A stretch of 41,932 nucleotides of DNA from an uncultured Flavobacteriales bacterium (GCA_913048175.1 CAJWVX010000011.1:1-41932); one strand, 5' to 3'. Shown: positions 3,033 to 41,932, numbered from the stretch's first letter. Notes: generated from the sequence alone by a model not told the origin. Made by a program: numbers and translations.

Positions 3033-3141
3033 AATATATTTTTAACATACTTTACTGACTCAGTTCTTTTTAAAAATTAAGTGATAGTAATAATATGTAT
3101 TTTGCATTTTCATTTGAACTTCAAAAGTAGCATTAAATTCG

Positions 3142-3456
3142 TTATGAATTCATTCGAGGTCTTTTCTTAGTAGATTCAGCTATAATTTCTTCTATTCTAC
3201 TTGCCAACTCAAAATCATTCATTGTTAAACCATCTACATCATGAGACCTTAACTTTATGTTTAATTTATTATAAGAGTTATACCAATCTGGATGATGATT
3301 CAATTCTTCAGCAACTTCCCCGATCTTAACCATAGCAGCAAAAGCCTCTTTAAAACTTTTAAAGGAAAAGTCCTTTATAATTCTATTGTCATTATAAGAC
3401 CACCCTTTAAGTGTTGTTAAATTAAAATCTATTTCGTTTTCAGTTAATTTTTCCAT
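3142..3456 (-). CDS. phhB: Pterin-4-alpha-carbinolamine dehydratase
   Basis: This enzyme dehydrates the 4a-hydroxy-tetrahydropterin left by phenylalanine hydroxylase, regenerating the cofactor with dihydropteridine reductase. The 104-residue length is typical. The family signature ELNHHPDWYNSYNKLNIKL (H54, H55, P56, W58) and the later SHDVDGLT (H72) provide the catalytic histidines. It is cytosolic with no signal peptide. It lies 158 bases upstream of phhA (start at 2983) on the same strand, separated by a terminator-like hairpin, so co-transcription would need read-through. No other start competes with the ATG at 3456. Confidence 0.95.
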   Translation of the reverse strand: MEKLTENEIDFNLTTLKGWSYNDNRIIKDFSFKSFKEAFAAMVKIGEVAEELNHHPDWYNSYNKLNIKLRSHDVDGLTMNDFELASRIEEIIAESTKKRPRMNS

Positions 3457-3740
3457 CTTTTATTTTTTTTAGATAATCTACCAAACCTTTAATAAGCCAA
3501 AAAAATCACAAAATATGCTAAGACTGTTTTTATTCTTTACAAGGATATAAAAAATTAACTTTTTTCTCTACAATACTCTTATAATTCTCTAAGGTTAAAA
3601 TTTATTACTTTCTATTTTTAGTGTTCTGCTGTACAAAAAAATTAAACGTAAAGAAAATAAATTTTTCGCTAAAATCGCTAAGACTCTTTCTGTTTTAGAA
3701 ATAATTTAAGTCATTTTTTATGCAAAGCTCATCAAATTAC
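3457..3740. other. AT-rich intergenic stretch, no gene seen
   Basis: About 280 bases without a convincing ORF. A short direct repeat, GCTAAGACT followed by a T-rich stretch, occurs at about 3518 and again at about 3677. I see no hairpin of note, and no promoter I would defend for the flanking minus-strand genes. Confidence 0.4.
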
Positions 3741-24028: not shown

Positions 24029-24865
24029 TTAACCCAAATGATATTTCACTAATTCTTCTATTGGCTGCTTAATTACTTTAACAACTTTTACATTGTATTT
24101 TTCTGCAACTGCCTTAAAAACATCTTGGTAAATAAAAGCGACTGAACCAATTAAATGTAAGTTATTATTTTGATAATCGGAATACTTGCAAATGTTTTTT
24201 TCAAAAAACAACGCAAAACGTTCTGCTACCATTCTATAGATAATAGGATCATCAATATTTTGAAATACAAATAAACTAAAGCTTGCTAAAAAACGATTTG
24301 GTAATGCCTGCTTATAAGTTGCATCTAAAATATCATCTGTACTCAAACCAGACTCTTCCTTAAATGCCTTTTCTATTTCTGGAGAAAGTTCTCCACCTAA
24401 ATAAGCTTTAATAAAGGTTGTTCCAATATCTGCTCCACTCCCATTATCGCCTAACAAATAACCTAAAGCTCTTATATTTTCTGTTATTTCTTTCCCATCA
24501 TACAAACAAGAATTAGATCCTGTTCCTAAAATTGCAACAACCCCTTTTTCATTAAAACAAGTTGCTCTAGCAGCAGCTAACATATCATGCTCTACTTCTA
24601 CTTTTGCATTACGAAAAAAAGTGTTTAAAGTATTGTGTAATTCTTGCTTATTTTTTACTGTAGAACAACCGGCAGCATAAAAAAAAACTTGAGTAACTTT
24701 TTCGTTGATAGCAACTAAATCAGAATTGGTTAATTCAGATAATATATTTTCCGAATTAATAAAATAGGGATTAAAACCAATCGTCTTATAATGAGCTATT
24801 TCGCCCGTATCATTCACTAAACGCCAATCTGTTTTAGTTGAACCACTGTCCGCTATCAAAATCAT
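24029..24865 (-). CDS. BadF/BadG-type ATPase, GlcNAc-kinase-like
   Basis: A 278-residue actin-like ATPase of the BadF/BadG/BcrA/BcrD group: MILIADSGSTKTDWRLV (phosphate-1 motif), VVAILGTGSNSCLYDG (phosphate-2) and LGDNGSGADIG. In this length class the likeliest role is an N-acetylglucosamine kinase. It is cytosolic. Stop and start lie clear of neighbours, and it is convergent with kdsC. No sugar-pathway partner is adjacent, so the substrate is uncertain. Confidence 0.78.
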   Translation of the reverse strand: MILIADSGSTKTDWRLVNDTGEIAHYKTIGFNPYFINSENILSELTNSDLVAINEKVTQVFFYAAGCSTVKNKQELHNTLNTFFRNAKVEVEHDMLAAARATCFNEKGVVAILGTGSNSCLYDGKEITENIRALGYLLGDNGSGADIGTTFIKAYLGGELSPEIEKAFKEESGLSTDDILDATYKQALPNRFLASFSLFVFQNIDDPIIYRMVAERFALFFEKNICKYSDYQNNNLHLIGSVAFIYQDVFKAVAEKYNVKVVKVIKQPIEELVKYHLG

Positions 24866-27448: not shown

Positions 27449-27619
27449 CTATAGTGAAAGAATTCCTTTTACAGCGAGTAATGTTAACCCAAGAACACCA
27501 ATAAGAGCTCCAAAAAAACTTTTAACAAAAGTATAACCATTTGCTTTTTGATAATTGGCTATTAAATACGCAATTAGAATATCTACTATAAAAATAATTA
27601 GCCAAGTAGAAGTATCCAT
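27449..27619 (-). CDS. Small two-segment membrane protein coupled to the TonB receptor
   Basis: A 56-residue ORF not obvious by length. Its ATG (27619-27617) shares its first base with the stop codon of the TonB receptor (TAATG), so it is positioned for translational coupling. The product has two hydrophobic segments, WLIIFIVDILIAYLIA (about 6-21) and SFFGALIGVLGLTLLAV (about 35-51), joined by NYQKANGYTFVK with two basic residues. It resembles small inner-membrane proteins with a YLIA...KGxxxxxxFFxG pattern, but I cannot name a family. The exact coupling and clean hydropathy support it being real. Confidence 0.6.
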   Translation of the reverse strand: MDTSTWLIIFIVDILIAYLIANYQKANGYTFVKSFFGALIGVLGLTLLAVKGILSL

Positions 27620-30090
27620 TATATTTTTAGCTGAATGGTAAAATAGTAATTTCTAATAGCTGAAGGTATTATTCCTGGACCAGGATAACCTATTGCTCTT
27701 CTTGTAAAATAACTTTCATTGCTTAAATTATTGATACCTGCTTCAAACTGAATTTGTTTTAAATTATATGTTAGAGATAAATCCATTACTGAATAAGATG
27801 GGATTACTCCAATAATAGCATTTGGTATAAATATTAAATTTCCATTAACATCTTTACCTGCATTTGTTGCATCAGAATATTGTTCTTGAACATAAGAATA
27901 CTGATAGCTAATAGAAAAGCCTTTATATGAAAATGTTGCACCAGTTTTTATATTAACAGGAGGAACAAATTCGACCAATTTATTGTTAAAAGCACTAATT
28001 TGACTATTGGTATATTTTGCACTAATATAAGAAGCATTTACAAATGTTCTAAAAGAGAATTTACTTGTATCTGAAAATAATATTTTACACCAATCCATTT
28101 CAACAACGGCTTCAACTCCCATTATATTGGCTTTTGAAACATTTGTTCGGTAGCGATAAACGATAAAGGTTTGTTCATCTTTCTTATCTACCGATCCTAT
28201 TCTATTGTCATACAACAACATAAACCCCGAAACATCATAACTCAATTTATTCGATACAACACCTCTAACACCTAAATCAAAATTATAGCCCGTTTCATCC
28301 TTTAAATCAGGATCTATTCTAAAATTTCTGTTTCTAATTTGCATATCCGTAAAATTAATGCTTCGGTAATTTTGAGTGAAATTAGCATACATATCAACGG
28401 TTTCATTAAATTTATAATTTAATCCCAAACCGCCTATTACAAAAGACCTTGTATTTTCACGTGATTCATTCCAAGTAGCATCAAAAATCGGATTTTGAGC
28501 TAAATCATATACAATCTGCCTATAACTTCCTTCTGCTTTTGTTTTAATATATTCAAATCTTAACCCTGGTGTTATACTCAACCTTTTTCCAAACCTAAAA
28601 ATATGCTCTACAAAAGCAGAATAATTGGTACTTGGAAATTCATAATCTGATCCTTCTAATTCATCCGGACTATTAAAGGTAAAATGTGGGAGGCTAGTTG
28701 TGTCTGCTGCTCCTTGCATACTGCGATTGAAACCCTTATAAAAACGACCTCCTAAAACAAAAGCCCAAGTACTTTTTCCTACATCATAAAGTTTTAGTAA
28801 CCTGGTTTCATTTCCCCAGTTTTTAAAGTCTCCGGTTATTAAATTTCTTTCTTCTGATGAATTATCTGTTCTACTGATATTTCCTAAAACACCCAAGGCT
28901 TTTCTCGAAGCATAAAGTCCAAAAAATTGTGTTTTTATTTTTGTTTTGGGCGAAAATTCATAATTAAAAGAAGACGCAAATAAATTCCAATCCACCTCAA
29001 ACCAGTTTCTTTCTCTTTTAGATTGAATCGGATCTTTATAAAACTCCTTGTCTGTTAATCCGCCTGGTTGTTGCGCCAAGTAATGCATTTTAGTATACTC
29101 AATATTTACAGTGACTTTTTCAGATAATTGATTGCTTATGTTCATTGCTCCCGAGTACACTTCAAAACCAGAATTTGGTCTAAATTCATTTCCTTTTTTT
29201 AACTGAAAATACCCATATCCTTTCCATGAACCTTCTTTAACCCCTATACTCATAAAGGAGTTGTTTAGATTGAAGGATCCTTTAGTGTGTCTGTAAATTA
29301 CTTCTAAATCCTTGTCTACCGGCCCATCATGCAATTTAAAATTAATTAAACCACCAAACTGAGTACCAAATTGCAGCGATGCTGCTCCCCTAACCATTTG
29401 TATTTCTTTAATAGCTTCGGCTGGTGGAGAATAATAACTTTCAGGATAACCCAAAGCATCTGCACTAATATCATATCCATTTTGGCGCGTATTAAAATTT
29501 GATGTTCTATTCGGATTTAGACCTCTACCTCCTATTCCAAGTTGAAGACCAGCACCATCACTTTCCCAAATATTTAATCCTGGTATTCTTGAATAAATCT
29601 GTCTACCTTGATTGGTTGCTTTATTGGCATCAATCTGTGCCATTTGAATCACTTCATTTTTTTTCCCTTCACTAATGATTACGCCTTCTATAGAACGCAT
29701 TCTTTTCATATAGCCAACACCTTGCTTTTTATCTATAACCTCAAAAGCATCTAAATCTTCAGTTTTAGGTTTAAGCGTAGCACTAATTTTCAACTTAGTC
29801 TTATCAAGATGTATTGTTTTTTCTTGTTTACTATAGCCTATAAACTGAAATACTAAGGTATAATCACCATAAGGTACGTCTTTTAAATCATACTGCCCTT
29901 TATCGTTGGTTTGAGTAGATTGATTTGTCTCCAACAAATATACCGTACAGTAAGGCATTTTATCATTGCCATCTGATTTTACAATACCCGAAATTGAACC
30001 TGTATTTTCAGCAAATAAAAAGGTTGGTAATATAAAAAATATTACCAAAATATTTAAATTAAGTGTTTTTATGTATTTAAAGTTAATCAT
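27619..30090 (-). CDS. TonB-dependent outer-membrane receptor (FecA-like) with carboxypeptidase-regulatory-like domain
   Basis: An outer-membrane receptor of about 823 residues. After a signal peptide (ending near LFAENTG) comes a CarboxypepD_reg-like beta domain (GSISGIVKSDG to TLKPKTED). The plug follows with GLNIWESDGAGLQLGIGGRG, SADALGYPESYYSPPAEAIK and MVRGAASLQFGTQFGGLINF, and then a 22-strand barrel ending YYFTIQLKI. The plug wording resembles ferric-citrate (FecA-type) receptors. The ATG at 30090 overlaps the stop of the upstream imelysin by 8 bases (ATGATTAA), so the lipoprotein and the receptor are made together. No TonB box was identified with certainty. Iron import is inferred from context. 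Confidence 0.92.
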   Translation of the reverse strand: MINFKYIKTLNLNILVIFFILPTFLFAENTGSISGIVKSDGNDKMPYCTVYLLETNQSTQTNDKGQYDLKDVPYGDYTLVFQFIGYSKQEKTIHLDKTKLKISATLKPKTEDLDAFEVIDKKQGVGYMKRMRSIEGVIISEGKKNEVIQMAQIDANKATNQGRQIYSRIPGLNIWESDGAGLQLGIGGRGLNPNRTSNFNTRQNGYDISADALGYPESYYSPPAEAIKEIQMVRGAASLQFGTQFGGLINFKLHDGPVDKDLEVIYRHTKGSFNLNNSFMSIGVKEGSWKGYGYFQLKKGNEFRPNSGFEVYSGAMNISNQLSEKVTVNIEYTKMHYLAQQPGGLTDKEFYKDPIQSKRERNWFEVDWNLFASSFNYEFSPKTKIKTQFFGLYASRKALGVLGNISRTDNSSEERNLITGDFKNWGNETRLLKLYDVGKSTWAFVLGGRFYKGFNRSMQGAADTTSLPHFTFNSPDELEGSDYEFPSTNYSAFVEHIFRFGKRLSITPGLRFEYIKTKAEGSYRQIVYDLAQNPIFDATWNESRENTRSFVIGGLGLNYKFNETVDMYANFTQNYRSINFTDMQIRNRNFRIDPDLKDETGYNFDLGVRGVVSNKLSYDVSGFMLLYDNRIGSVDKKDEQTFIVYRYRTNVSKANIMGVEAVVEMDWCKILFSDTSKFSFRTFVNASYISAKYTNSQISAFNNKLVEFVPPVNIKTGATFSYKGFSISYQYSYVQEQYSDATNAGKDVNGNLIFIPNAIIGVIPSYSVMDLSLTYNLKQIQFEAGINNLSNESYFTRRAIGYPGPGIIPSAIRNYYFTIQLKI

Positions 30091-31231
30091 TTTCGTAAAT
30101 AGGACAAAACACTTCCAAAGAATTTGACATATCAACTTTTAGATAAACTAACATTTGTTGCATTTTTTCATAAAGTACAGCAACACCAGAGCTATTGGTT
30201 AATACTTCATTACTTAGTGGATCGTTAATATTAGCTAATTCTAACCGAATAGTTTCAAATTGGTTATTAATGACTGCTTGTAAGTCTTGGCCATCTGTTT
30301 TGGCTTTTAAAAACGTCATATAATCATCTAATCCTTCTCCCGTAATATTTGTAACATAGTTATTGCCATTAATAAATGTTTGCATCGCGTTTAATGATCT
30401 GAATAAAAATGGCAATGATTTTTCATAATATAAAGCCTCTACATGATTAGGCATGGCCATTGGATTAAAATCATCTATTCCTAGGGGTATACCAATTTTA
30501 CCAAGTCTTACAGAATATACATAATGATGATTTATAGCACAAACCATATCAAATATGCCAATAACCTCACCATTATTTCCATTATTATTAATGAATGAAT
30601 TGGTATAAGAACCTTGCCATTCATTATTTACAAAGTTTGCGTTGTTCTCTAACACATCAACAATATCTAAAAGGTAAACTCTAGCATTAGCCGTGTTGGA
30701 GAAATAATTAACAATACCTGCATCATTTGATGACACTCCATTTATTAAAAAATCTAAGGCTTGAAAGCCTGCAGCTCGGTAATTTGGATTCAACTGTAAG
30801 TTGTATGATCCAGATGAAATATTACTGCTAATTAAAGTCGTATCAGTTGGAAATGAATTGGTTTTATAACTTGAAAATTTAGCTGGTCCAAAATCTAAAA
30901 AAGCCACATCTTGCCATACCAACAAGGCGTTTTCCCACTTTATTCTTAAGTTTTGCAATGCCGCTTCGGTAAGGGTGTTATTAAAATTTACAATCTCGCT
31001 TTTTAATTCCGTAACTTTTAATAAATACTCACTGTAAGCAGGCTTAATATATCCATTGGCATAATTGGTTAATAATGCCTTACTATTATATTCCTCTTCC
31101 ACCGCAGGTTGACTTTGAGGCAATATTTTTTCCTCTTCGTCTTCTTTACTGCACCCAACTACAATTACTAGACTAAGTAAAATTAGTACTAATGACAAAT
31201 TCCAAGGTAAACAATTGTTATTATTTTTCAT
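30083..31231 (-). CDS. Imelysin-family lipoprotein (paralogue 4)
   Basis: A 382-residue lipoprotein: lipobox VVGCSKEDEEE with C27 and an acidic post-cysteine stretch typical of surface-exported Bacteroidota lipoproteins. The imelysin-type all-helical domain follows from about residue 48 (ALLTNYANGYIKPAYSEY, WENALLVWQDVAFLDFGPA). At the position of the family GxHxxE metal motif it has GFQALD (G155-D160), with His replaced by Gln and Glu by Asp. It is clearly a duplicate of the next gene upstream. It shares 8 bases with the TonB receptor gene and so is the receptor's likely surface partner. Confidence 0.88.
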   Translation of the reverse strand: MKNNNNCLPWNLSLVLILLSLVIVVGCSKEDEEEKILPQSQPAVEEEYNSKALLTNYANGYIKPAYSEYLLKVTELKSEIVNFNNTLTEAALQNLRIKWENALLVWQDVAFLDFGPAKFSSYKTNSFPTDTTLISSNISSGSYNLQLNPNYRAAGFQALDFLINGVSSNDAGIVNYFSNTANARVYLLDIVDVLENNANFVNNEWQGSYTNSFINNNGNNGEVIGIFDMVCAINHHYVYSVRLGKIGIPLGIDDFNPMAMPNHVEALYYEKSLPFLFRSLNAMQTFINGNNYVTNITGEGLDDYMTFLKAKTDGQDLQAVINNQFETIRLELANINDPLSNEVLTNSSGVAVLYEKMQQMLVYLKVDMSNSLEVFCPIYEND

Positions 31232-31438: not shown

Positions 31439-32584
31439 TCAATCTCCATCACCACTGTCATAGGTAATTATAACTTCTATAGCGTCTGACATATCAACTT
31501 TTATATAAGCCACCATCTGCTGTATTTTTTCATAAAGACTAGTCAGAGCCGGATTATTAGCGCTTACCTCATTAGCTAATGGATCATTAATATTTGCCAA
31601 TTCTGCGTTAATAGTTGAAAATTGGTTATTAATAACCGTTTGTAAAGGCTGACCACCAGTTTGACCGTTTACAAATGAAATATAATCATCAAATCCTATA
31701 CCTGTTGCACTATTGGCGTAAGCATTACCATTAATAAATGTTTGCAAAGAACTTAAAGATCGATAAAGATAAGGTAAAGACTGGCCGTGATAGTAGGCCT
31801 CAACTTTCTCTGGGAATGTTTCAGTCGTAAAAGTATCAAAAACATTTAATGGAATTCCTAATTTTCCGCTTCTAAGATATTTCTCGTAATGTAAATTTAT
31901 AGTATTCACAATAAGACTTACAGAGCTTCCATCTGCATTACTGGCACTATTGGCAATAAAGCTAGAAGCGTAAGTTCCAAACCAATCATTTTTTACAGTT
32001 GTTGCATTAACTTTCAACTCATTTACGACATCGGCTAAATAAGTTCTAGCATTTGGTGCATTATTGAAGTAAGAGACTATATCAGCATCATTTGCTGCAA
32101 CTCCATACAATAAATAATCAACAGCCTGAAAACCTTTTGCCGGTATATTAATTAACTGTGCTAGATTGTAACTGCCCGAAGCAATATTATTCTCTATTAC
32201 TGCTGCAGTTATTGGGTAAACATTGGTTTGCCCCCTTAAGCTAATATTTGAAGCCGGACCAAACTCAAGAAAAGAAACATCTTGCCAAGTTAATAGTGCA
32301 TTGTGCCATGCTGTTCTTACGTTAGATAACGAAGACAAATCTAATGAAGTATTAAATGAACTAACTGCATTTTCTAAAGCAACAACCTGAGATTCATATT
32401 CAGTGTATGCTGGTTTAATGTATTGATTAGCATAGTTGGTTAACAAAGCTTCTCTATCAAACGCATCAGGACTTTGTTCTAAAAGAACAACATCATCTTC
32501 ATCTTTACTACAACCAGTTGTAAAAATAGTTATAGCAACAATTGCCGACAAGGATAATTTAGTTATTACAGATTTTTTTTTCAT
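31439..32584 (-). CDS. Imelysin-family lipoprotein (paralogue 3)
   Basis: A 381-residue lipoprotein (lipobox TTGCSKDEDD, C25). It aligns along its length with the downstream paralogue: ALLTNYANQYIKPAYTEY, WHNALLTWQDVSFLEFGPA, INNQFSTINAELANINDPLANEV. The metal-motif position reads GFQAVD (G151-D156), again lacking His. It ends in DSGDGD, a tail echoed by the paralogue at 34077 (GNDGD). A hairpin precedes it (32604-32645) and another follows. No -7 element is seen ahead of it, so it may rely on read-through from the DUF4856 gene. Confidence 0.88.
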   Translation of the reverse strand: MKKKSVITKLSLSAIVAITIFTTGCSKDEDDVVLLEQSPDAFDREALLTNYANQYIKPAYTEYESQVVALENAVSSFNTSLDLSSLSNVRTAWHNALLTWQDVSFLEFGPASNISLRGQTNVYPITAAVIENNIASGSYNLAQLINIPAKGFQAVDYLLYGVAANDADIVSYFNNAPNARTYLADVVNELKVNATTVKNDWFGTYASSFIANSASNADGSSVSLIVNTINLHYEKYLRSGKLGIPLNVFDTFTTETFPEKVEAYYHGQSLPYLYRSLSSLQTFINGNAYANSATGIGFDDYISFVNGQTGGQPLQTVINNQFSTINAELANINDPLANEVSANNPALTSLYEKIQQMVAYIKVDMSDAIEVIITYDSGDGD

Positions 32585-32701: not shown

Positions 32702-33907
32702 TTAAAGGTTATCTTTGTCGCCAGCTAATCCAGTATTATTAGCAATTAAATCAATAGCAGCATTCAAGTTAGCAAGAGTCACCTGACTAAAGTCAGCACC
32801 TACAAGCAATAAAGCAGAATCGATATCAGCTGCACTCATTCCAGTACCACCAATACAAGGTTGACCATATCTTAAACCATTTATAAATGCCCAAGCTTCA
32901 GATAACTGGTGATTCATCAATGTATTCTCTTGACCAAAGCTATCCTTAGCATCATTCAAATAATGAATTGCAGTTCCTGCCAATACTCTTTCCATTTCAG
33001 TATTAATAATAACTGCCTGTGCATCTCTTGTAGTATAATCTTGATTATCAATGGCAGCTCTACCAGTTCTAAAAGCAGTTGCGATAGCAGTTGCAGAACC
33101 TAAAACAGTTTCTCTACCATCTGCATATTTACCCCAAAAACGGTTTGTACCATTAGTTGGATAATCAAATTCCGATGTAAAATATCCGTAAGCTTCATCC
33201 CAGTGGTGTTGCATATCCGTATATGTTTTCCCAGTTGGAATAGTAGTATTATCATCACTTGAGATATTTGCTAAGTAGTTAGTAGTCATTTGGCTATAAA
33301 ACACTGCAGCCATCAATCCTTTCTCAATTAACTGTGTATACTCTAAACCATTTGCACTTTGCAAATAGCTCTTAGTACCACTGGCATTGCTCCAAACACC
33401 ACCAGTACCATAACTTTCACTAGAGTTATCAACATTCATATTACTTAATGCTGCCATATCATCCATCCAAACCTCAAAAGTTGCTTGTACTGATGGACTA
33501 TTACCAGCTGTTTTACTTTTTAGTTGTTTTGTAGTTGGATTCATTCCAAGCATTGGAACATCAGCCCAAACATAACTATTTGCATTTGCATACATATTCT
33601 TTAATGTTTGCGCATCAACAGTATTTCCTAAAGTTTTCGTGGTATTCATGTAAGCACTCAATTCACTCAACATTTCTAAACGTTGTTGTTGGCCACCAAA
33701 ACTTACTGTATTAGCACTTGCAGCATCTACAAAAGTATAGGTTGTTGGAACGTTGTATGCTGGAGTTGTTGTTCCTGTTGTTGTTGTTGCTGGTGTTACA
33801 GCTACTGGCTCAACAACCTCATCATCTTTAGAACATCCTACTGCCATTAACATTGTACTTGCTAAAAAGACAGTACCTACTTTGTTTAAATTTAACATCA
33901 TTTTCAC
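32702..33907 (-). CDS. DUF4856 lipoprotein
   Basis: A 401-residue lipoprotein (lipobox MAVGCSKDDE, C25), followed by a Thr/Pro linker (about 36-52). The DUF4856 domain spans about 55-395, with the blocks YTFVDAASANTVSFGGQQQR, LEMLSELSAYMNT, MQHHWDEAYGYF and FRTGRAAIDN. DUF4856 proteins regularly accompany imelysin and TonB-receptor genes in Bacteroidota, and a helical iron-related role like that of imelysins is suspected but not proven. It has its own TTG-N20-TACTTTTG promoter and a 21-bp iron-box-like operator 13 bases ahead of the start. Codons at 33905-33896 offer alternative Met starts. Confidence 0.88.
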   Translation of the reverse strand: MKMMLNLNKVGTVFLASTMLMAVGCSKDDEVVEPVAVTPATTTTGTTTPAYNVPTTYTFVDAASANTVSFGGQQQRLEMLSELSAYMNTTKTLGNTVDAQTLKNMYANANSYVWADVPMLGMNPTTKQLKSKTAGNSPSVQATFEVWMDDMAALSNMNVDNSSESYGTGGVWSNASGTKSYLQSANGLEYTQLIEKGLMAAVFYSQMTTNYLANISSDDNTTIPTGKTYTDMQHHWDEAYGYFTSEFDYPTNGTNRFWGKYADGRETVLGSATAIATAFRTGRAAIDNQDYTTRDAQAVIINTEMERVLAGTAIHYLNDAKDSFGQENTLMNHQLSEAWAFINGLRYGQPCIGGTGMSAADIDSALLLVGADFSQVTLANLNAAIDLIANNTGLAGDKDNL

Positions 33908-33919
33908 TTTATTTTACCT

Positions 33920-33940
33920 TATTTAGATTAGTTCTAAATA
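33920..33940. promoter_or_regulatory. Fur-box-like palindromic operator (DUF4856 gene)
   Basis: Half-site TATTTAGA-TT and inverse half-site with one central base (33930); outer 8 of 10 bases match on both sides. It lies between the -7 element and the start codon. It belongs to a set of four such sites. Confidence 0.75.
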
Positions 33941-33946
33941 ACTACA

Positions 33947-33977
33947 CAAAAGTAAACTGAGACTCTAATTCTTACAA
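33947..33977 (-). promoter_or_regulatory. Promoter of the DUF4856 gene
   Basis: On the minus strand TTG (33977-33975), a 20-base spacer, TACTTTTG (33954-33947). The same geometry occurs at 38014-38044 and 41017-41047. Confidence 0.75.
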
Positions 33978-34076
33978 TACCATAAATGTGGTATTCTGTA
34001 TATATTTTAACTTAAACTGTTTCGCGTTATATAAAAGAGATGTTAATATAGAATAAACTTAACACTGCTAACTCGA

Positions 34077-35222
34077 TTAATCTCCATCATTACCACTAAA
34101 GGTAACGATCACATCTGTTGAATTTGCGACATCAAGCCTTAATAAATCATGTAAACTTTTAAAATGATTTAATATATTATTTAATTGAGAAGGTTCGTTT
34201 ATCACTGCCGTTGCTATTGAGTTTGAAGAAATTTGATTGATAGATAACTGAAGACTATCTAACTGCTCCTTTATTGCTGCACTTAATAAATCACTGCCTT
34301 TTTGAGCATTGATTTCATCTAACAAATCACTCACGCTCTTTTCATTCAGATTTTGAGTATCTGCTATCAACCCTTTTTCTAATGCAATTAAGTTTTTCTG
34401 AATATTTGACAAGGAATTTTCACTATTGTAAGATTCTGATAAAGTAGGATCAACATTACCTATAGATGCTCCCATTGGCTTTTCCAATTTTGTAATTATA
34501 ATATAACCCAATAACTCAATTAAATTATTTAGATGAACATTAAAACTTCCACTAATTTCGTTTTGAGTGTGGTTAATAAATTCCTGGTAATAGTTCCCTT
34601 CGTTTATATTCCAAATCGAATCAATTTTTGATACTTTATCTAAAAGATTAACAGCTAAAGCATTTAAATATTGTTTTCGTCTGTATTGATAATTAGAACT
34701 ATTAAAACTATCTAACACACTTTGGTTACCATAATCTATACTAAAAATAAAATTTTCTATTGCTGGCAATCCTTTAACGGTTGAGCCTTTAGAGTCTAAA
34801 TAAACACTATTAATAGAATCAGATCCAATAAGCACATTATCAATAAATACTAAATTTGATGGCCAAACATCTATTGAAAAAAGTAAATATTGATTCTTTA
34901 CAGGACCAATATTATACAAACAATTTTGTTCCCATTGATCCTGAACTGTTTTCCAATTATTTTGAAGAATTAGTAAGTTAGATAGATTAGAATTATTAGT
35001 AAATGCTGATGAACTTAACTTCAGAGTTAATGCCTTATCAACCAATAATTGATTATTTGGTAGAATAACATTATCTGCTAAATTGCTTAAAATTTCTTTC
35101 TTAAACTGATCATTATTTGTCGCTATATTGGATGATTCATTTGTTGACTCTATAGTTTGATCTTTGCTACAACTCAAAAAACAAAATGTGGTAATAAAAA
35201 AAATGATTATTATCTTACTCAT
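34077..35222 (-). CDS. Imelysin-family lipoprotein (paralogue 2), divergent
   Basis: A 381-residue lipoprotein (lipobox FLSCSKDQ, C18). The imelysin-like region is recognisable by FKKEILSNLADNVILPNNQL, WKTVQDQWEQNCLYNIGPV and YRRKQYLNALAVNLLDKV. The metal motif position reads GLPAIE (G151-E156): Glu kept, His replaced by Pro. It ends FSGNDGD. It starts 12 bases after the di-haem oxidoreductase gene and so belongs to that operon. Possibly it is a scaffold or a binder of another ligand, since the His ligand is gone. Confidence 0.85.
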   Translation of the reverse strand: MSKIIIIFFITTFCFLSCSKDQTIESTNESSNIATNNDQFKKEILSNLADNVILPNNQLLVDKALTLKLSSSAFTNNSNLSNLLILQNNWKTVQDQWEQNCLYNIGPVKNQYLLFSIDVWPSNLVFIDNVLIGSDSINSVYLDSKGSTVKGLPAIENFIFSIDYGNQSVLDSFNSSNYQYRRKQYLNALAVNLLDKVSKIDSIWNINEGNYYQEFINHTQNEISGSFNVHLNNLIELLGYIIITKLEKPMGASIGNVDPTLSESYNSENSLSNIQKNLIALEKGLIADTQNLNEKSVSDLLDEINAQKGSDLLSAAIKEQLDSLQLSINQISSNSIATAVINEPSQLNNILNHFKSLHDLLRLDVANSTDVIVTFSGNDGD

Positions 35223-35234
35223 ATCTATATTAAA

Positions 35235-36650
35235 TTAAAGTGATTTAACAAATTCTAACAATTGACCTCTTTCTATTTGAGATAAATTCGAGAAATTATC
35301 TTTTGAATTTTCTGCTTCTCCTCCATGCCACATTATAGCTTCTGTAAGATTTCTAGCCCTACCATCATGTAAATAAAAAGTATGGCCATTTACAGTTTCT
35401 ATAAGACCTAACCCCCATAAAGGGGGCGTTCTCCATTCCTGCCCATTTGCTAAAAATTCTGGTCTATTATCTGCTAAACCAACTCCCATATCATGCAATA
35501 ACAAATCTGTATAGGGCCATATTTTCTGATTACTTAAATTAGAGAATTTAAGGTTAATACCTGTTGTGTAATTCGCTTTATGGCAAGCAACACAACCACT
35601 ACTATTAAAAATTTTCTTTCCTTGTTTTACATTAAAACTATCTATATTTCTTCTTGCTGGAACAGCCAAATTACTAACATATAGTTCAATATGACTTAAA
35701 GAGGTATCTGTTAACTCTGGAATACCTCCACTTACAGCAGTTAAACAATCATTTTGAGGACTTGTACAATTTTCAACAGGAAAAAAAGAACTTGTTATTC
35801 CTATATCTCCTAAAAAAGCATCTGCGGACTGCTGCCTTAAATTGGGTTGACCAGCTTTCCAACCAAAACGCCCTAACTTATTGGTTCCCGCAATAACATC
35901 ATATACATAATTTGGCTTGCCTGATACTCCATCATTATTGATATCTTGTTCATCTGCATTTGCTAAAATATCTACTTCACCAATTGAGCCCAACAAACCC
36001 AAACCTATCATATGCTGACCTACCCTTGGAGAGGTTAATACTCCTGATAGCGAACCAAAATTTAAATTAACAAACGAATAAATTGGAGTTTGTAAACTGT
36101 AAGCTTCACCATCTAAAAAAGTGTAATTAGTTATTGTCTGGCTTATATAAACTTCTCCTTCTGCAGGAATTCCGACATTAGCTTGAGGGTTTAACTGTCC
36201 ACCATAAGCGGGATGAGGATTTGGAGCTCCATTTGGATCAGCACCAGCAATGCTTAAACGCATCAAAAAACCGGTTGAATTTTCACCATTAAAAGCTGGA
36301 GGTCTTCCTCTACCATCTTTAAAGTGACAAGCTGAACAAGATCTTGCATTAAATGTTGGCCCTAAGCCATCACGAGCAGTAGTTGAAGCTGGAGCACTTA
36401 CCCAATTTTGATTAAAAAAAGAATTCCCAACAAAAAAATTCAATTCTTGCAAACCTGTTATTGCTGGAGAAACATGACCAAAAGCGTTCGGGGAAAAATC
36501 AAAAGTGGTATTGTTATTACCTCCAGGATATTCTTCACTTTCATCATAAATAGAAGTTGCTGCAACAGCATCAACAGATTCATAATCCTCTTTTTTTGAA
36601 CAAGACAATAAAAAAAAAATACTAATTATTACAATTATATATATATTCAT
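35235..36650 (-). CDS. Di-haem c-type oxidoreductase (DUF1111/DHOR) lipoprotein
   Basis: A 471-residue lipoprotein (FLLSCSKKED, C17) with two c-type haem sites, CSACH (C105, C108, H109) and CVACH (C353, C356, H357). Flanking blocks are typical of the putative di-haem peroxidase family: GLGPTFNARSCSACHFKDGRGRPP, IGLGLLGSIGEVDILA, FGWKAGQPNLRQQSADAFLGDIG, and the C-terminal TPPLWGLGLIETVNGHTFYLHDGRARNLTEAIMWHGGEAE. It is exported and would be matured by the ResB-CcsA system at 19311-22445. Between two imelysin genes it is a redox partner for iron chemistry at the surface; its substrate is unproven. Confidence 0.92.
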   Translation of the reverse strand: MNIYIIVIISIFFLLSCSKKEDYESVDAVAATSIYDESEEYPGGNNNTTFDFSPNAFGHVSPAITGLQELNFFVGNSFFNQNWVSAPASTTARDGLGPTFNARSCSACHFKDGRGRPPAFNGENSTGFLMRLSIAGADPNGAPNPHPAYGGQLNPQANVGIPAEGEVYISQTITNYTFLDGEAYSLQTPIYSFVNLNFGSLSGVLTSPRVGQHMIGLGLLGSIGEVDILANADEQDINNDGVSGKPNYVYDVIAGTNKLGRFGWKAGQPNLRQQSADAFLGDIGITSSFFPVENCTSPQNDCLTAVSGGIPELTDTSLSHIELYVSNLAVPARRNIDSFNVKQGKKIFNSSGCVACHKANYTTGINLKFSNLSNQKIWPYTDLLLHDMGVGLADNRPEFLANGQEWRTPPLWGLGLIETVNGHTFYLHDGRARNLTEAIMWHGGEAENSKDNFSNLSQIERGQLLEFVKSL

Positions 36651-36669
36651 AATAAATGATTCAACCTAA

Positions 36670-36700
36670 AAAACAGAATCCTTTTAAAGGATTCTGTTTT
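36670..36700 (-). terminator. Strong hairpin between imelysin and di-haem gene
   Basis: AAAACAGAATCCTTT (36670-36684) pairs with AAAGGATTCTGTTTT (36686-36700), a 15-bp perfect stem with a one-base nominal loop. It lies in the 78-base gap after the first imelysin gene. T's follow on the minus strand only weakly, so partial termination or mRNA protection is likely. Confidence 0.7.
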
Positions 36701-36728
36701 CAAGAAATTGTTCTTCTATTTTTAAAAA

Positions 36729-37961
36729 CTAATCAATAGAAATTGTTAATCCAAATGCATCTGCCATTTCAGAAATTTTATCTCCTTGATTTTGTAAAGA
36801 TAAAATCGCAGTCATAATTGGACCACTACCACCAACAGACTCTTGTGTTAATGCATTATCAAAAGGTACTGGCATAGCACTAGTATTAGAAATAGTTGCT
36901 AAAGAAAGTACATTCATTTCACCTTCAATTGTTGTATTTATTTGTGTAATTAAATCTTTTAATGAAGTTCCAGAAACAACCGACCCATCAGTTTTTGTAT
37001 AACTTCCTGTATAAACATTTCTAATACCTTGAGCATTTAAAATAATATCTCTGTGTGTATTATCACTAAAACAAGAATGTTCATCCTCTTGATCTTGATT
37101 AGTTAAAGCAACAAACATTCGCTCTCCTGCTAATTCAGCTTTACTTAAAGTACCAATTCCAGTTAAAATATATTGTAACATTGTGTTATTAGGTAAAGCT
37201 ATAAAAGAAGCTCTATAGTTATTTGAATTTCCTGTTTCCCAAGCTTTTACCATTAAATCTAAATGATCTAATAATAAGTCAGCAACAGCTAATAAATAGT
37301 CTTTTCTTCGTTGTTCATTACCTGGACCACTACCTACAATAAAATCAGTAAACGGTCTATTCCCTGATGTTTGTAGTGATGTGTTAGCATCATCTTGCCC
37401 CCATAATAAAAATTCTATTGCATGGTATCCAATTGAAATATTCGCTTCTCCACCTTGTTCATTCAATCCATCTAAAATACTTCCTGAAATTGTTGGATAA
37501 GTTGACACATCATTAATAATTCCACTTGTTGAAGAACTTGATGTATAATCAATATAAGCCTCATCCAAAGGCCAAGCATTTAATTGACCTTCTGGGCCGT
37601 TAGCATCATCAATTGGTCCACTTGCAAATCTAAATGCTTCTGTTTGTCCATAAGGTTCACGAGCATCTAACCAAGACTGTTTTGCAGTTGCTAAATTTGC
37701 TGCACTTGGCGCGTTTGTAAATGAAACTAAAGCTGTTTTCAACTCTACTGCTTTATCATAAGAGTCTTTATAATTTGCATAAACAATATTTGCATAATTT
37801 TCTTTTATTGCAGTTTTTGCACTTGCATTCGGGTCAGCTGCTGTAGTTGTACCACCAGAAGCAACAACAGGTACTGGAGTTTCCTCATCTTTAGAGCATC
37901 CTATAGCAACTGCTATTCCTACCAATAAAATGCTACTTACTTTTAACAATCTTGTTTTCAT
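36729..37961 (-). CDS. Imelysin-family lipoprotein (paralogue 1), canonical metal motif
   Basis: A 410-residue lipoprotein from the favoured start at 37961 (lipobox AIGCSKDEE, C22 of that start). It is the only one of the four with the full imelysin GxHxxE motif: GYHAIEFLLWGQD (G184, H186, E189 counted from 37979). It also carries WLDAREPYGQTEAFRFASGPI near residue 103, typical of ICMP/IrpA-type imelysins (Pfam Peptidase_M75). Family members bind iron and are iron regulated; protease activity is doubtful. It heads the di-haem/imelysin operon, with its own promoter and the best-conserved 21-bp operator. Confidence 0.92.
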   Translation of the reverse strand: MKTRLLKVSSILLVGIAVAIGCSKDEETPVPVVASGGTTTAADPNASAKTAIKENYANIVYANYKDSYDKAVELKTALVSFTNAPSAANLATAKQSWLDAREPYGQTEAFRFASGPIDDANGPEGQLNAWPLDEAYIDYTSSSSTSGIINDVSTYPTISGSILDGLNEQGGEANISIGYHAIEFLLWGQDDANTSLQTSGNRPFTDFIVGSGPGNEQRRKDYLLAVADLLLDHLDLMVKAWETGNSNNYRASFIALPNNTMLQYILTGIGTLSKAELAGERMFVALTNQDQEDEHSCFSDNTHRDIILNAQGIRNVYTGSYTKTDGSVVSGTSLKDLITQINTTIEGEMNVLSLATISNTSAMPVPFDNALTQESVGGSGPIMTAILSLQNQGDKISEMADAFGLTISID

Positions 37962-37982
37962 TATAAATTCTTTTTTCAACCC

Positions 37983-38003
37983 TATTTAGAATCATTCTAA
38001 ATA
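37983..38003. promoter_or_regulatory. Fur-box-like operator (imelysin/di-haem operon)
   Basis: A perfect 10-1-10 palindrome: TATTTAGAAT, central C (37993), ATTCTAAATA. The inner part has the 7-1-7 AAT-N-ATT core of Fur boxes. It lies between the -7 element (38014-38021) and the start codon, where a repressor would block initiation. Confidence 0.85.
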
Positions 38004-38013
38004 ATAATCAACA

Positions 38014-38044
38014 CAAAAGTAAAAGCCTACAAAAGAATATGCAA
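38014..38044 (-). promoter_or_regulatory. Promoter of the imelysin/di-haem operon
   Basis: On the minus strand TTG (38044-38042), a 20-base spacer, and TACTTTTG (38021-38014), followed downstream by the palindromic operator. Confidence 0.8.
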
Positions 38045-38153
38045 TACCAGAAACAAGGTACAGAAAGTCAAAACTCTGATAAACAGATTTTTAAAAGAAC
38101 AAAATACCCTATTTAAGGTATACAAATTTAAAAAAAGTGACAATTATAAAGTA

Positions 38154-39242
38154 TTAAATTTCAAACCCCATAAACAAAACATCATCAATCTGCTCCGATT
38201 TTGATTTCCATACTTCAAAATATTTCTTAAAACTTTTTTTTTGCTGCTGTAAGTTTAAACTCTGAAATTCCTGAATAAGTGATACAACTTTATTAGAGCC
38301 TATTTTCTTATTTTTAAAACCTCCAAATTGATCTTGATAACCATCAGAAAACAAATAAAAACGATCTCCTTCTTTCAGACTAATCAATTCATTTTTAAAT
38401 TCTTTTTTAACAAAAGGATAGAATCCAATAGGAAATCTACCTCCACGAATTTTATTTAATACCCCATCTTGAAAAACAATTGCGTTATGAAATGCGCCAG
38501 AAAAGATTAGTTCCTTACTAACTGTATTTAGTCTGCATAGTCCAATATCTAAACCATCTGTTATCACTCTATTATGTACTTTTAAAGCTTCAAGCATCTT
38601 CACATCAAGTAAAGCTAATATCTCTTTTGGATCCGATACTTTTTCATGAATAATTATTTCATTAAGCAAAGTATTTGACAAAACAGTCATAAGTGCTCCT
38701 GGCACTCCATGTCCCGTACAATCAATTGATGCAATAAAGAGAAAATCATCCATTTGATAAAACCAATAAAAATCTCCACTGACAATATCTTTTGGCTGAT
38801 AAATTATAAAGCTATTTTTTAGCAATTGTAAAGAAGAAACATTAGGTAATAAAGATTTCTGAATTCCTTCAGCATACTTTAAACTATCAATCATATTCTT
38901 ATTTTGCTGCTTTAGTTTTCTGTTCTGTTCATTAATTAAAGGTTCAAATTTTTTAACACAAGTAACATCTTTTCCAATAGCAACAAGTTTTACATCCGAG
39001 ACCTTACAAACAATCCACTCTATCCAAATAATACCTTTTTTTGTTTGATACTTATATGTGACTGTTTCAACCTTATTAATCAAGAATTTATTTAAAAACC
39101 GCTCACTAACTAATGGACAACATTCTCTACTTCTGATTAAACCAAGAAAATTTGAATAGACATACCTAAATTCACTTAGGAAAGATTTAACCTCAGTGTT
39201 AGCTTCAGATAAAACCCCTAAATTTGATATTTCAATATACAT
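38154..39242 (-). CDS. SpoIIE-type PP2C serine phosphatase
   Basis: A 362-residue cytosolic protein. The first about 90 residues are a PAS-like sensor segment, a short coiled region (EQNRKLKQQNKNMIDSLKYA, about 104-124) follows, and then a SpoIIE/PP2C phosphatase domain. Its metal-ligand aspartates are conserved: VSGDFYWFY, IDCTGHGVPGALM, ITDGLDIGLC, FSDGYQDQFGG and QIDDVLFMGFE. The domain dephosphorylates serine/threonine partners, such as anti-sigma antagonists, in other bacteria; no such partner is encoded here. Its start lies 10 bases from the palindromic operator at 39252-39272, placing it under the same control as the iron genes. Confidence 0.9.
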   Translation of the reverse strand: MYIEISNLGVLSEANTEVKSFLSEFRYVYSNFLGLIRSRECCPLVSERFLNKFLINKVETVTYKYQTKKGIIWIEWIVCKVSDVKLVAIGKDVTCVKKFEPLINEQNRKLKQQNKNMIDSLKYAEGIQKSLLPNVSSLQLLKNSFIIYQPKDIVSGDFYWFYQMDDFLFIASIDCTGHGVPGALMTVLSNTLLNEIIIHEKVSDPKEILALLDVKMLEALKVHNRVITDGLDIGLCRLNTVSKELIFSGAFHNAIVFQDGVLNKIRGGRFPIGFYPFVKKEFKNELISLKEGDRFYLFSDGYQDQFGGFKNKKIGSNKVVSLIQEFQSLNLQQQKKSFKKYFEVWKSKSEQIDDVLFMGFEI

Positions 39243-39251
39243 AAATACTGC

Positions 39252-39281
39252 TATTTAGAATGATTCTAAATAACAAAACTA
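39252..39281 (-). promoter_or_regulatory. Fur-box-like operator and -7 element (SpoIIE phosphatase)
   Basis: A perfect 10-1-10 palindrome (39252-39272, central G at 39262) with a -7 element TAGTTTTG (39281-39274) directly next to it. No good -33 TTG is seen at 20 bases, so the promoter part is weaker than the operator. Confidence 0.75.
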
Positions 39282-39398
39282 TATTAAAAATTATTTAAAA
39301 AAAAACTAATAAAGACATCAAAATATATTAAACTGATATTCAGTTAAATAAAAAATAAACTAAAAGGAATATACCCTGTTTAAGGTATTTAAAAAAAA

Positions 39399-40334
39399 CT
39401 AATTAAATAGTTTTCTAAAAGGGGAGGTTAGGTTTTTTGAGAAGGAATTATAGTCCTTATCTTCATCTCCTAAACCAAAAGTTAACTCTTTAACATTTTT
39501 TGATTTAATAAGTGTTCCAAATAAAAGATCCCAAAAAGCAAAACGAGAGCCTAAGTTAGTGTCAAAGTGTTCCTTTTTACTACTGTGATGAATTTGATGC
39601 TGAAAAGGACTGATTAGAATATTTTCAATAAAAGAAAAGTATTTAAGTTTTACATGAGAATGGCGCAAGTTTGCACCTAAAAAATAGAACATAAAATTAA
39701 AAATATTCACTCCTAAAAAGGTTACAATACTAACATTTCCATTTGCTAAATAAAGAAATACACCCGTAATTGCTCCTTTTACAACTACACCTTTTATATT
39801 GTTTACAATTAACTCTATAGGATGAATTCTGTATTGAGTAAAAGGAGTTAAAGTAGTTGCTGAATGGTGAATTTTATGAAATTCCCATAGAAAAGGAATT
39901 GTGTGCATAAAGTAATGAATCAGAAAACTAAAGAAATCGTTAACAACAACTATCGTAATTGTATAAACGATAATTATTGTGGTTGATGACAAAGCGAATT
40001 CCGAAGGGCCAATAGTTTCAATAAAATAATCATTTATTCCTTCAGCAATGTATAGAGCAAATATTAGAAAAGGCGAAATAACGAATACCTTTACTGCACT
40101 ATTAAAAAATATGAGACAATAATCAACAATAGCTGAACTACCAAACCATCTCTTTTTACTTAAAAAGTACTTTTTAAAAGCTGGCTTTTCTTTTGTTCTA
40201 AAAAAAACAAATAAAGCCAATAAAAATGAAGTTAATAAATAAACGAGAAAAATTCTTTTACTAGGAGAAAGTAAATAGTTAATTGGCATCTGAACAATCT
40301 CTAAAATTAAATCTATTAATTCTGACAAGTTCAT
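39399..40334 (-). CDS. Sterol desaturase/fatty acid hydroxylase family membrane enzyme
   Basis: A 311-residue integral membrane diiron enzyme with several membrane segments (about 25-45, 75-100, 118-145 and 190-225). The histidine clusters HYFMH (about 149-153), HKIHH (about 162-166) and HQIHH (about 256-260), with HSH nearby, form the diiron centre of the fatty acid hydroxylase superfamily (alkylglycerol monooxygenase, sterol desaturase, ceramide hydroxylase). The substrate is probably a membrane lipid. It follows the LuxR-type regulator by 24 bases, so it is under the same iron-box promoter. Confidence 0.88.
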   Translation of the reverse strand: MNLSELIDLILEIVQMPINYLLSPSKRIFLVYLLTSFLLALFVFFRTKEKPAFKKYFLSKKRWFGSSAIVDYCLIFFNSAVKVFVISPFLIFALYIAEGINDYFIETIGPSEFALSSTTIIIVYTITIVVVNDFFSFLIHYFMHTIPFLWEFHKIHHSATTLTPFTQYRIHPIELIVNNIKGVVVKGAITGVFLYLANGNVSIVTFLGVNIFNFMFYFLGANLRHSHVKLKYFSFIENILISPFQHQIHHSSKKEHFDTNLGSRFAFWDLLFGTLIKSKNVKELTFGLGDEDKDYNSFSKNLTSPFRKLFN

Positions 40335-40358
40335 AATCCAGTGTTATTAAAAATTATT

Positions 40359-40988
40359 TTATTTGATAATATTCTCCCGAAAAGCGTAAATAACAATACC
40401 TGCAGTATTTTTTATTCCGAGTTTATTCATGATGTTTTTACGGTGAGTATTTACCGTATGTGTACTTAAAAATATTTTTCCTGCAATTTCTTTGTTAGAA
40501 AACCCATCTGAAATAAGCTTAATAACTTCTATTTCTCTTTCGGATAAAGAAACTCCTGAACAGCCTTGCTTTTCAGCCTCGGTACCCTCTGCTAAAATAT
40601 CAATTACTTCTCCGCAATAAAATTGTTTACCTGCATGAGTATCCGCCAATGCATCCATTATTTCTGGCTTTTCACAATCGGAAAGTAAATAACTATCTAC
40701 GCCATTTTTTAATGCGTTATAAACTGTTGATTTAGGCAACTTGTCTGTAATGGCTAATATCTTACAGTCTTTATAAATCTTCTTTATGGTTTTAATAGCT
40801 TTAACTCCAAAAACATCAGAAGAAAAATCAATTACAACTACATCAGGAAAGTATTTAGAAGATTTTTTTTCTAGATATTCAATAGAATTAGCAATTCCTA
40901 AAACCCTATTACCCGTTTTAGATTGGATAATCGTTTTTAGCCCCTCTCCGGCTATTTCATTTTTATTTGCAATTAATATATCTATCAT
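40359..40988 (-). CDS. LuxR/NarL-type response regulator with degenerate receiver
   Basis: A 209-residue protein: receiver-like domain (1-120) and a LuxR helix-turn-helix (about 145-205; LSEREIEVIKLISDGFSNKEIAGKIFLSTHTVNTHRKNIMNKLGI). In the receiver D54 (VVVIDFSSD) is present, but the acidic pair after strand 1 is replaced by ANK (residues 7-9), and the usual lysine near 105 is Ser (SYLLSD). Phosphorylation by a kinase is therefore doubtful, and no kinase gene is adjacent. It heads a two-gene unit with the diiron hydroxylase, under a promoter with a palindromic operator (40991-41011). Confidence 0.92.
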   Translation of the reverse strand: MIDILIANKNEIAGEGLKTIIQSKTGNRVLGIANSIEYLEKKSSKYFPDVVVIDFSSDVFGVKAIKTIKKIYKDCKILAITDKLPKSTVYNALKNGVDSYLLSDCEKPEIMDALADTHAGKQFYCGEVIDILAEGTEAEKQGCSGVSLSEREIEVIKLISDGFSNKEIAGKIFLSTHTVNTHRKNIMNKLGIKNTAGIVIYAFRENIIK

Positions 40989-40990
40989 AT

Positions 40991-41011
40991 TATTTAGACT
41001 GGTTCTAAATA
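40991..41011. promoter_or_regulatory. Fur-box-like operator (LuxR regulator and hydroxylase)
   Basis: TATTTAGACT, central G (41001), GTTCTAAATA; the outer 8 bases of each half match the other sites. It starts 2 bases upstream of the ATG of the regulator and lies just below the -7 element, where it could overlap the transcription start and ribosome entry. Confidence 0.75.
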
Positions 41012-41016
41012 GACTT

Positions 41017-41047
41017 CAAAAGTAAGTACATTATATAAATCTAACAA
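41017..41047 (-). promoter_or_regulatory. Promoter of the regulator/hydroxylase unit
   Basis: On the minus strand TTG (41047-41045), a 20-base spacer, and TACTTTTG (41024-41017). Confidence 0.75.
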
Positions 41048-41120: not shown

Positions 41121-41932
41121 ATGAAATCGCTACTTAAGCATTTAACATTTTTACTCATTTTTACTTCTAAATTGGCTGTTGCTGGTGACGGGGTGAAATT
41201 TATTGAAAACAAAGGGCAGTGGAATAGTAATGCAATATTTAAAGGTGAATTAAAAGGTGGTTTCTTATATTTAGAAAAAAACAAACTAACTTTTGATTTG
41301 TTAGACACAAAAACTTTTAGCCAATACATAAAAGCCCATCATGAAAAAAGTTCTAATAGAGTTTTTGACAAATTAAATTGGCATGCTTACAATATTGAAT
41401 TCCTTGGAGGGGAACTTAATCCTTCTATTTCAGGAAAATACAAGTCTCAGGAATATTACAACTACTTTTTAGGTAATGACAAGTCAAAATGGGCATCAAG
41501 AGCTAAAGGCTATTATCAAGTTGATTACAAAAATATTTATAAAGGAATTTCTTTAACCATATATTCTGATGATGACTTAAAGTATGATCTAATAATTGAT
41601 CCAAACTCAAATACCAAAGACATTAAACTAAAATATAATGGAGTTGATAATATTTCATTAAAAAAAGGTCAAATTCATATTACAACTTCTGTAAACAAAA
41701 TTATTGAAGAAAAACCATACGCCTATCAGATAATTAATAACGAAAAAATTCAAGTCACCTGTAATTACACTTTAAAAAATAACACCATTGGTTTTGATTT
41801 TCCTGATGGGTATAATAAAAATGAAAAACTTGTAATTGACCCAACACTAATATTCTCAGCCTATTCGGGTTCACTTTCTAATAATTTTGGCTATTCTGCT
41901 ACATCAGATTCTAAAGGCTTTTTATACTCTGG
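41121..41932 (+). CDS. Large secreted DUF7948/SBBP-repeat protein, 5' part
   Basis: A reading frame open to the end of the window, starting at ATG 41121 (about 270 codons seen). A signal peptide (ending near AVAGDG) is followed by FIENKGQWN and the DUF7948-type blocks YYNYFLGNDKSKWASRAKGY, IYKGISLTIYSDDDLKYDLI and KLVIDPTLIFSAYSGS, and finally GYSATSDSKGFLYSG, the first of the SBBP beta-propeller repeats. Such proteins in Bacteroidota usually carry a C-terminal type IX secretion or gliding-type domain, which is outside the window. It is divergent from the regulator unit. Confidence 0.8.
   Translation, partial: MKSLLKHLTFLLIFTSKLAVAGDGVKFIENKGQWNSNAIFKGELKGGFLYLEKNKLTFDLLDTKTFSQYIKAHHEKSSNRVFDKLNWHAYNIEFLGGELNPSISGKYKSQEYYNYFLGNDKSKWASRAKGYYQVDYKNIYKGISLTIYSDDDLKYDLIIDPNSNTKDIKLKYNGVDNISLKKGQIHITTSVNKIIEEKPYAYQIINNEKIQVTCNYTLKNNTIGFDFPDGYNKNEKLVIDPTLIFSAYSGSLSNNFGYSATSDSKGFLYS

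Follow-up and report, generated by a model that had tools for sequence, protein, structure and literature searches.

The window analysed here is a whole contig of 41,932 nucleotides (G000:C11) from a draft Bacteroidota genome; throughout, G-numbers denote the genomes compared, C-numbers contigs and L-numbers loci. It carries a cluster of minus-strand genes in which a domain scan found four imelysins (PF09375), a di-haem oxidoreductase (DHOR), a DUF4856 protein, a SpoIIE-type phosphatase, an FA_hydroxylase protein and a LuxR/GerE-type transcription factor, the same families that a first-pass annotation of the sequence had named. For the imelysin gene that opens the imelysin-DHOR-imelysin unit, the ATG at 37961 was preferred over the TTG at 37979. 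Two sequence elements precede these genes (Table 1), and together they suggest joint control by the iron regulator Fur and by the LuxR-type protein of the cluster itself.

Searching the window for TATTTAGAAT-N-ATTCTAAATA with up to three mismatches gave exactly four matches, where 0.07 were expected and where none of 100 shuffled sequences reached four. The first-pass annotation had described four near-identical palindromes at these places, two of them perfect, and the search agrees with it; the outer 8+8 bases are kept in all four. It also placed each palindrome between a -7 element and the start codon of a minus-strand gene, as the distances bear out: at all four promoters the box starts 9–18 bp past the first base of a TAnnTTTG -7 element, at 3–22 bp from the start codon. 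A chance origin of the palindromes is ruled out by the shuffles and by control patterns.

The motif is the same as the Fur box predicted in Riemerella anatipestifer, of the same order (Flavobacteriales), 5'-ATTTAGAATTATTCTAAAT-3', which is backed by electrophoretic mobility shift assays of purified Fur on chosen promoters and by a fur mutant (PMC5609570). The 19-bp, 7-1-7-type inverted repeat has the Fur-type layout proposed in the first pass. A genome-wide scan, also suggested there, found 18 sites with up to three mismatches against five for the reversed control pattern; about 14 of the 18 are promoter-proximal and four lie inside genes. Sites precede feoAB, an fbp-type iron ATP-binding cassette (ABC) transporter, sufA-BCD, the gene of a HmuY-like type IX secretion system protein, a short Cys-rich protein gene, nqrA and others (gene names outside the window were read from translations unless a Pfam or NCBIfam scan supplied them). 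Among 41 genomes from the genus, family and class, nearly all have more matches to the motif than to its control. It is near certain that the four palindromes are Fur-bound. Two species of the genus share the box upstream of nqrA (Na+-NQR; L018 2032-2052, L095 3889-3909), which hints at a respiratory complex under Fur control.

An iron (Fur) regulon, as the first-pass annotation read the cluster, is of an already known kind, and that reading stands. It was incomplete in that it missed a second operator and the probable role of luxR as an activator gene. The second element, TACC-N8-GGTA, occurs four times in the window, always upstream of boxes 1–3 (0.29 expected; four reached in none of 100 shuffles). 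Its plain count in the genome is not enriched (31 sites, against 56 for the reversed control), so its signal is one of coupling to Fur boxes and promoters: nine of the 31 sites lie beside Fur boxes (chance about 3e-20). Across 1.42 Mb of distinct sequence, a set partly collected through Fur sites and LuxR loci, 39 of 94 sites are within 130 bp of a Fur box, with 0–1 for each of 11 permutations of the half-sites and 0–1 for 14 other spacings (2 to 16). GGTA stands 22–24 bp from TAnnTTTG in 32 cases, in 23 of them at exactly 23 bp, while control half-sites give 0–1 at 20–26 bp; a -33 TTG therefore follows GGTA directly, and the relatives share a composite promoter of the form TACC-N8-GGTATTG, 17–20 bp, TAnnTTTG, Fur box.

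Because the 1.42-Mb set was gathered in part through Fur and LuxR, two less biased tests were used. Whole-genome scans of the class found 43 sites combining TACC and Fur box in 31 of 149 genomes, and promoter-only TACC composites in 53 of 149, with none for the control in either case. For 30 DUF4856 genes chosen by protein family alone, the TACC element was present at 24, a Fur box (up to four mismatches) at 21 and both at 18, the rates in shuffled sequence being 0.3% for TACC and 0.8% for the Fur box. Targets of the composite promoter include DUF4856, imelysin, HmuY-like, TonB receptor, porin-like, suf and luxR genes. A degenerate pattern, TACCNTNTTTAAGGTA, was rejected as a description of the operator, being too loose and near chance; the TACC and GGTA ends hold the signal. 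At L021 (2394-2431) a Fur box lies in the spacer between TACC-TTG and TAnnTTTG, before the gene of a short Cys-rich protein. An isolated TACCTTAAACAGGGTA site identical to the SpoIIE element of the window occurs at L083 (1147-1162) in a relative without SpoIIE at that place, possibly as the remnant of a lost gene's promoter.

Table 1 Features of the iron-linked gene cluster, in window coordinates
Feature	Position	Strand	Remarks
Predicted Fur box 1	33920..33940	-	2 mismatches; before DUF4856 gene; position conserved in G009
-7 element TACTTTTG, DUF4856 promoter	33947..33954	-	
Predicted Fur box 2	37983..38003	-	perfect; before imelysin gene
-7 element TACTTTTG, imelysin promoter	38014..38021	-	
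Predicted Fur box 3	39252..39272	-	perfect; before SpoIIE-type phosphatase gene
-7 element TAGTTTTG, SpoIIE promoter	39274..39281	-	
Predicted Fur box 4	40991..41011	-	2 mismatches; before luxR; no TACC element at luxR
-7 element TACTTTTG, luxR promoter	41017..41024	-	
TACC-N8-GGTA, then TTG (presumed -33), DUF4856 promoter	33978..33993	-	predicted LuxR operator
Proximal TACC-N8-GGTATTG, imelysin promoter	38045..38060	-	
Distal TACC-N8-GGTA, imelysin promoter	38105..38120	-	
Distal TACC-N8-GGTA, SpoIIE promoter	39372..39387	-	proximal position in G009 orthologue
NarL/FixJ-type (LuxR) transcription factor	40359..40988	-	degenerate receiver; Cys105, Cys125, Cys143; proposed cluster activator
FA_hydroxylase (diiron) gene	39399..40334	-	second in luxR unit
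SpoIIE-type PP2C phosphatase	38154..39242	-	
Imelysin (PF09375)	36729..37961	-	start set at ATG 37961
Di-haem oxidoreductase (DHOR)	35235..36650	-	
Imelysin	34077..35222	-	
DUF4856 lipoprotein	32702..33907	-	
Imelysin	31439..32584	-	
Imelysin	30083..31231	-	
TonB-dependent receptor	27619..30135	-	likely end of DUF4856 unit; G012 has same gene order

The LuxR protein of the window is of the NarL type by sequence, by its AlphaFold model (predicted local distance difference test score 91) and by fold search, with a receiver and a GerE helix-turn-helix (HTH) fold. Its phosphorylation pocket (acidic pair, acceptor Asp, Lys) is incomplete: the orthologues keep Asp54 and lack the acidic pair, the second residue being S, N, G, A, K or Q, and the receiver Lys is often lost in the closest relatives. 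No kinase gene was seen linked to luxR, and the protein is an orphan NarL-type regulator. The orthologues share three conserved cysteines (C105, C125 and C143 in the window), of which C143 falls in a low-confidence linker of the model. The LuxR set was split 73/8/28, a few loci being the same genome from two collections. Since the cysteines served to select the three-Cys alignment (A3), their invariance in it is not independent evidence; the split is. A Fur box lies in the start region of at least 60 of the 73 three-Cys luxR genes, across a dozen families, and of none of 28 other paralogues (p=3e-15, kinship ignored). A single clade of the CC-bearing LuxRs was neither rejected (p 0.13) nor demonstrated, with three label changes against 24.9 after shuffling. 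Conservation of E109 along with the cysteines was not used as evidence, this residue being by eye common in NarL-type receivers. Some luxR genes have a TACC promoter themselves (L217, L222, L231, L243).

NarL recognizes a consensus heptamer TACYYMT, and an engineered high-affinity NarL site reads TACCCCTAAAGGGGTA (PMC4549865). TACC-N8-GGTA has the 7-2-7 geometry of NarL operators and the same form as that site, and it is probably bound by LuxR.

The arrangement of the cluster is conserved. In G009, of the same genus, the genes run luxR, hydroxylase, spoIIE, imelysin, DHOR, imelysin, DUF4856, and none of the four Fur boxes is missing; four TACC elements are present too. Identity to the window is 92% at motif bases and 57% at other intergenic bases. 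The hydroxylase gene lies between luxR and DUF4856 in G012, with a TACC element of its own, and in G024 upstream of a DUF4856 gene that has both TACC and box, while in G023 and G026 SpoIIE-type genes stand next to luxR in divergent orientation. By these arrangements, the three genes not expected among iron genes, encoding LuxR, the SpoIIE phosphatase and the diiron hydroxylase, which the first pass had counted in the regulon, are real members of it, at least for some of the genus and family.

From the two motifs, their spacing, their conservation and their co-occurrence with LuxR, we infer binding by both regulators, activation by LuxR and the order of events that follows. The circuit would probably be a coherent feed-forward loop, since luxR itself has a Fur box: Fur would repress luxR and the targets, and LuxR would activate the targets. 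Iron-loaded Fur would block transcription, because its boxes overlap the expected transcription start of the four units. At the imelysin and DUF4856 promoters TACC directly adjoins the -33 element and is centred near -42, as judged from the -7 element, and class II activation is proposed for this reason. The luxR unit would supply an orphan NarL/LuxR-type activator together with the diiron hydroxylase, and the other three units (imelysin-DHOR-imelysin; DUF4856-imelysins-TonB receptor; SpoIIE phosphatase) would answer to both box and TACC operator. When iron falls, Fur would leave all four promoters and LuxR would be made, bind TACC-N8-GGTATTG and switch on the haem/iron surface genes. A first tier with Fur box and without TACC (feoAB, the fbp-type unit) would respond at once, and a second tier (the imelysin, DUF4856 and HmuY-like units) only to lasting starvation.

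Fur boxes alone would explain the four palindromes, and in a plain Fur regulon luxR would merely be a Fur target and TACC the site of an unrelated regulator, for example another NarL-type protein with a sensor kinase; such paralogues are many per genome, with 19 in G000. We consider this unlikely, given that the TACC elements adjoin Fur boxes, precede iron and haem genes and lie in or beside luxR-containing clusters. Of 76 class genomes with a LuxR orthologue, 30 have a TACC-Fur composite, as does one of 73 without (p=1e-9); for promoter-only composites the counts are 44 of 76 and nine of 73. In DUF4856-bearing genomes the element is present in 23 of 24 with an orthologue and in one of six without (p=2e-4). 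The exception, G079, has TACC without an orthologue and encodes a divergent LuxR whose HTH is closely similar. The DUF4856 promoters of G055 and G013, which have no orthologue, keep the Fur box and lack TACC. Several points weigh against a LuxR tier. The co-occurrence counts ignore phylogeny, many luxR-bearing genomes lack an exact composite, and in nine genomes the TACC promoter is present and a LuxR orthologue (E<1e-55) is not. The SpoIIE promoter of the window has a distal TACC element only, other NarL-type paralogues of the genome could bind TACC-N8-GGTA, and binding of Fur and LuxR in this organism is a prediction.

In several of the nine genomes, not all, a CdhR-like LuxR with a hemerythrin probably replaces the orthologue. 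In Porphyromonas gingivalis, CdhR (PG1237), whose partner is the hemerythrin PG1236, is reported to be a LuxR/NarL-type regulator of the HmuY haem-uptake operon; hmuYR reportedly rises when cdhR rises, and the mechanism of control was called unclear in 2023 (PMC10434189, PMC9666725). Several genomes with TACC promoters and no three-Cys LuxR (Bacteroidales) have a hemerythrin-domain gene and, next to it, one for a LuxR whose HTH is closely similar, as has been described for CdhR and for BT_0519-0520. In them a TACC promoter lies before TonB receptor units, feoAB and a porin-imelysin-DHOR unit. As TACC promoters occur together with these hemerythrin-CdhR-like operons, we propose TACC-N8-GGTATTG as the operator of a wider CdhR-like group; no CdhR operator was found in the literature searched. 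TACC and Fur elements also precede HmuY-like genes. The CdhR-like proteins of these genomes differ from the LuxR described here in lacking the three cysteines and in having no Fur box in front (up to four mismatches), CdhR itself being compared by description. No hemerythrin gene adjoins luxR in the window; in G011 a hemerythrin-like gene is among the neighbouring targets, and in G024 one lies within the HmuY operon. Two proteins, one small and hemerythrin-like, the other a Cys-rich DUF6686 protein, accompany the HmuY operon or its Fur/TACC promoters (L083 1549-2486, L090 7207-8147, L364 3878-4832) and are possible iron sensor partners.

The sign of LuxR action could also be the opposite, with LuxR repressing from TACC, for example with iron or haem on its cysteines, so that Fur and LuxR would be two brakes. 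NarL-type proteins can repress (PMC4549865), and the geometry differs at two promoters, that of suf, where the element is close to the promoter core, and that on C172, where the Fur box is inside the spacer. We hold repression to be quite unlikely: the dominant place of TACC, directly upstream of the -33 TTG and 22–24 bp before the -7 element, is that of a class II activator, NarL acts as an activator of napF and yeaR at positions of about -38 to -49 (PMC4549865), and the related CdhR is the reported regulator of an operon that rises with it.

Binding of the palindromes by a DtxR/IdeR-type or PerR-type regulator is very improbable, and was rejected on gene context and operator: besides one Fur (C39) the genome has one DtxR-type gene, which adjoins a Mn/Zn-type ABC transporter and looks like MntR, and one Fur paralogue, which stands beside ahpC and sodB, has its own TTGTAATGATTACAA operator, different from the Fur box, and looks like PerR, whereas the palindrome motif is bound in vitro by Riemerella Fur (PMC5609570) and is still present in several relatives with a single Fur-family gene. 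The local Fur is thus by elimination the likely binder; of the 'Fur/DtxR-type repressor' suggested in the first pass, Fur is favoured by the Riemerella motif and the genome-wide sites, and DtxR is the less likely option. The gene of the PerR-like paralogue lies at L081 (G000:C83) 3086-3493, with a TTGTAATGATTACAA palindrome, likely a PerR box, at 3512-3530 before its start.

As in the window, Riemerella Fur sites lie less than 100 bp from the start codon at -7/-33 promoters, and the table of fur-regulated genes includes an imelysin lipoprotein and TonB receptors; unlike the window, the part of the account used here has no LuxR tier or TACC element (PMC5609570), and in our data the targets extend to LuxR, SpoIIE phosphatase, diiron hydroxylase and DUF4856. 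E. coli NarL and NarP share with LuxR the receiver and GerE HTH; the predicted LuxR operator, 16-bp TACC-N8-GGTA, and the proposed activation from about -42 would also be as in NarL and NarP. LuxR differs in having no acidic pair, no linked kinase that was seen, predicted Fur control and the conserved cysteines. BldM and WhiI are likewise orphan response regulators called atypical, and in the portions of their descriptions used here neither a cysteine set nor a Fur-controlled gene is reported. MliR, a MerR-like regulator of iron genes in Bizionia, gave no motif match. The two-tier architecture and the TACC operator were not found in the open-licence literature searched.

The divergent neighbour of luxR in the window (41121-41932) encodes a long secreted protein marked by an 'ENKGQW' motif in its N-terminal region, and such a protein is next to luxR also at L083, L092, L097, L098, L360 and L361. 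In other genera and families, luxR orthologues at L094, L097 and L285 adjoin genes for ribonuclease Z, a STAS-domain protein or a BadF-type ATPase; a gene of the last kind also lies in the window (24029-24865).

Iron control in Bacteroidota is poorly understood. We offer a concrete candidate operator, TACC-N8-GGTATTG fused to the -33 element, a candidate activator family under Fur and a gene list, which make the circuit testable, and a regulatory reason to count the genes of DUF4856 proteins, SpoIIE-type phosphatases and FA_hydroxylase proteins among those of iron starvation. It is possible, as a tentative suggestion, that the three-Cys NarL-type protein senses iron, Fe-S or redox state through a cysteine-bound cofactor in place of phosphorylation, and that it stands for a class of transcription factors derived from response regulators; made only after release of Fur, such a sensor would read iron status twice, as an AND gate, across much of Bacteroidia. 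If the proposed circuit is true, Bacteroidota would have a two-step iron-starvation response.

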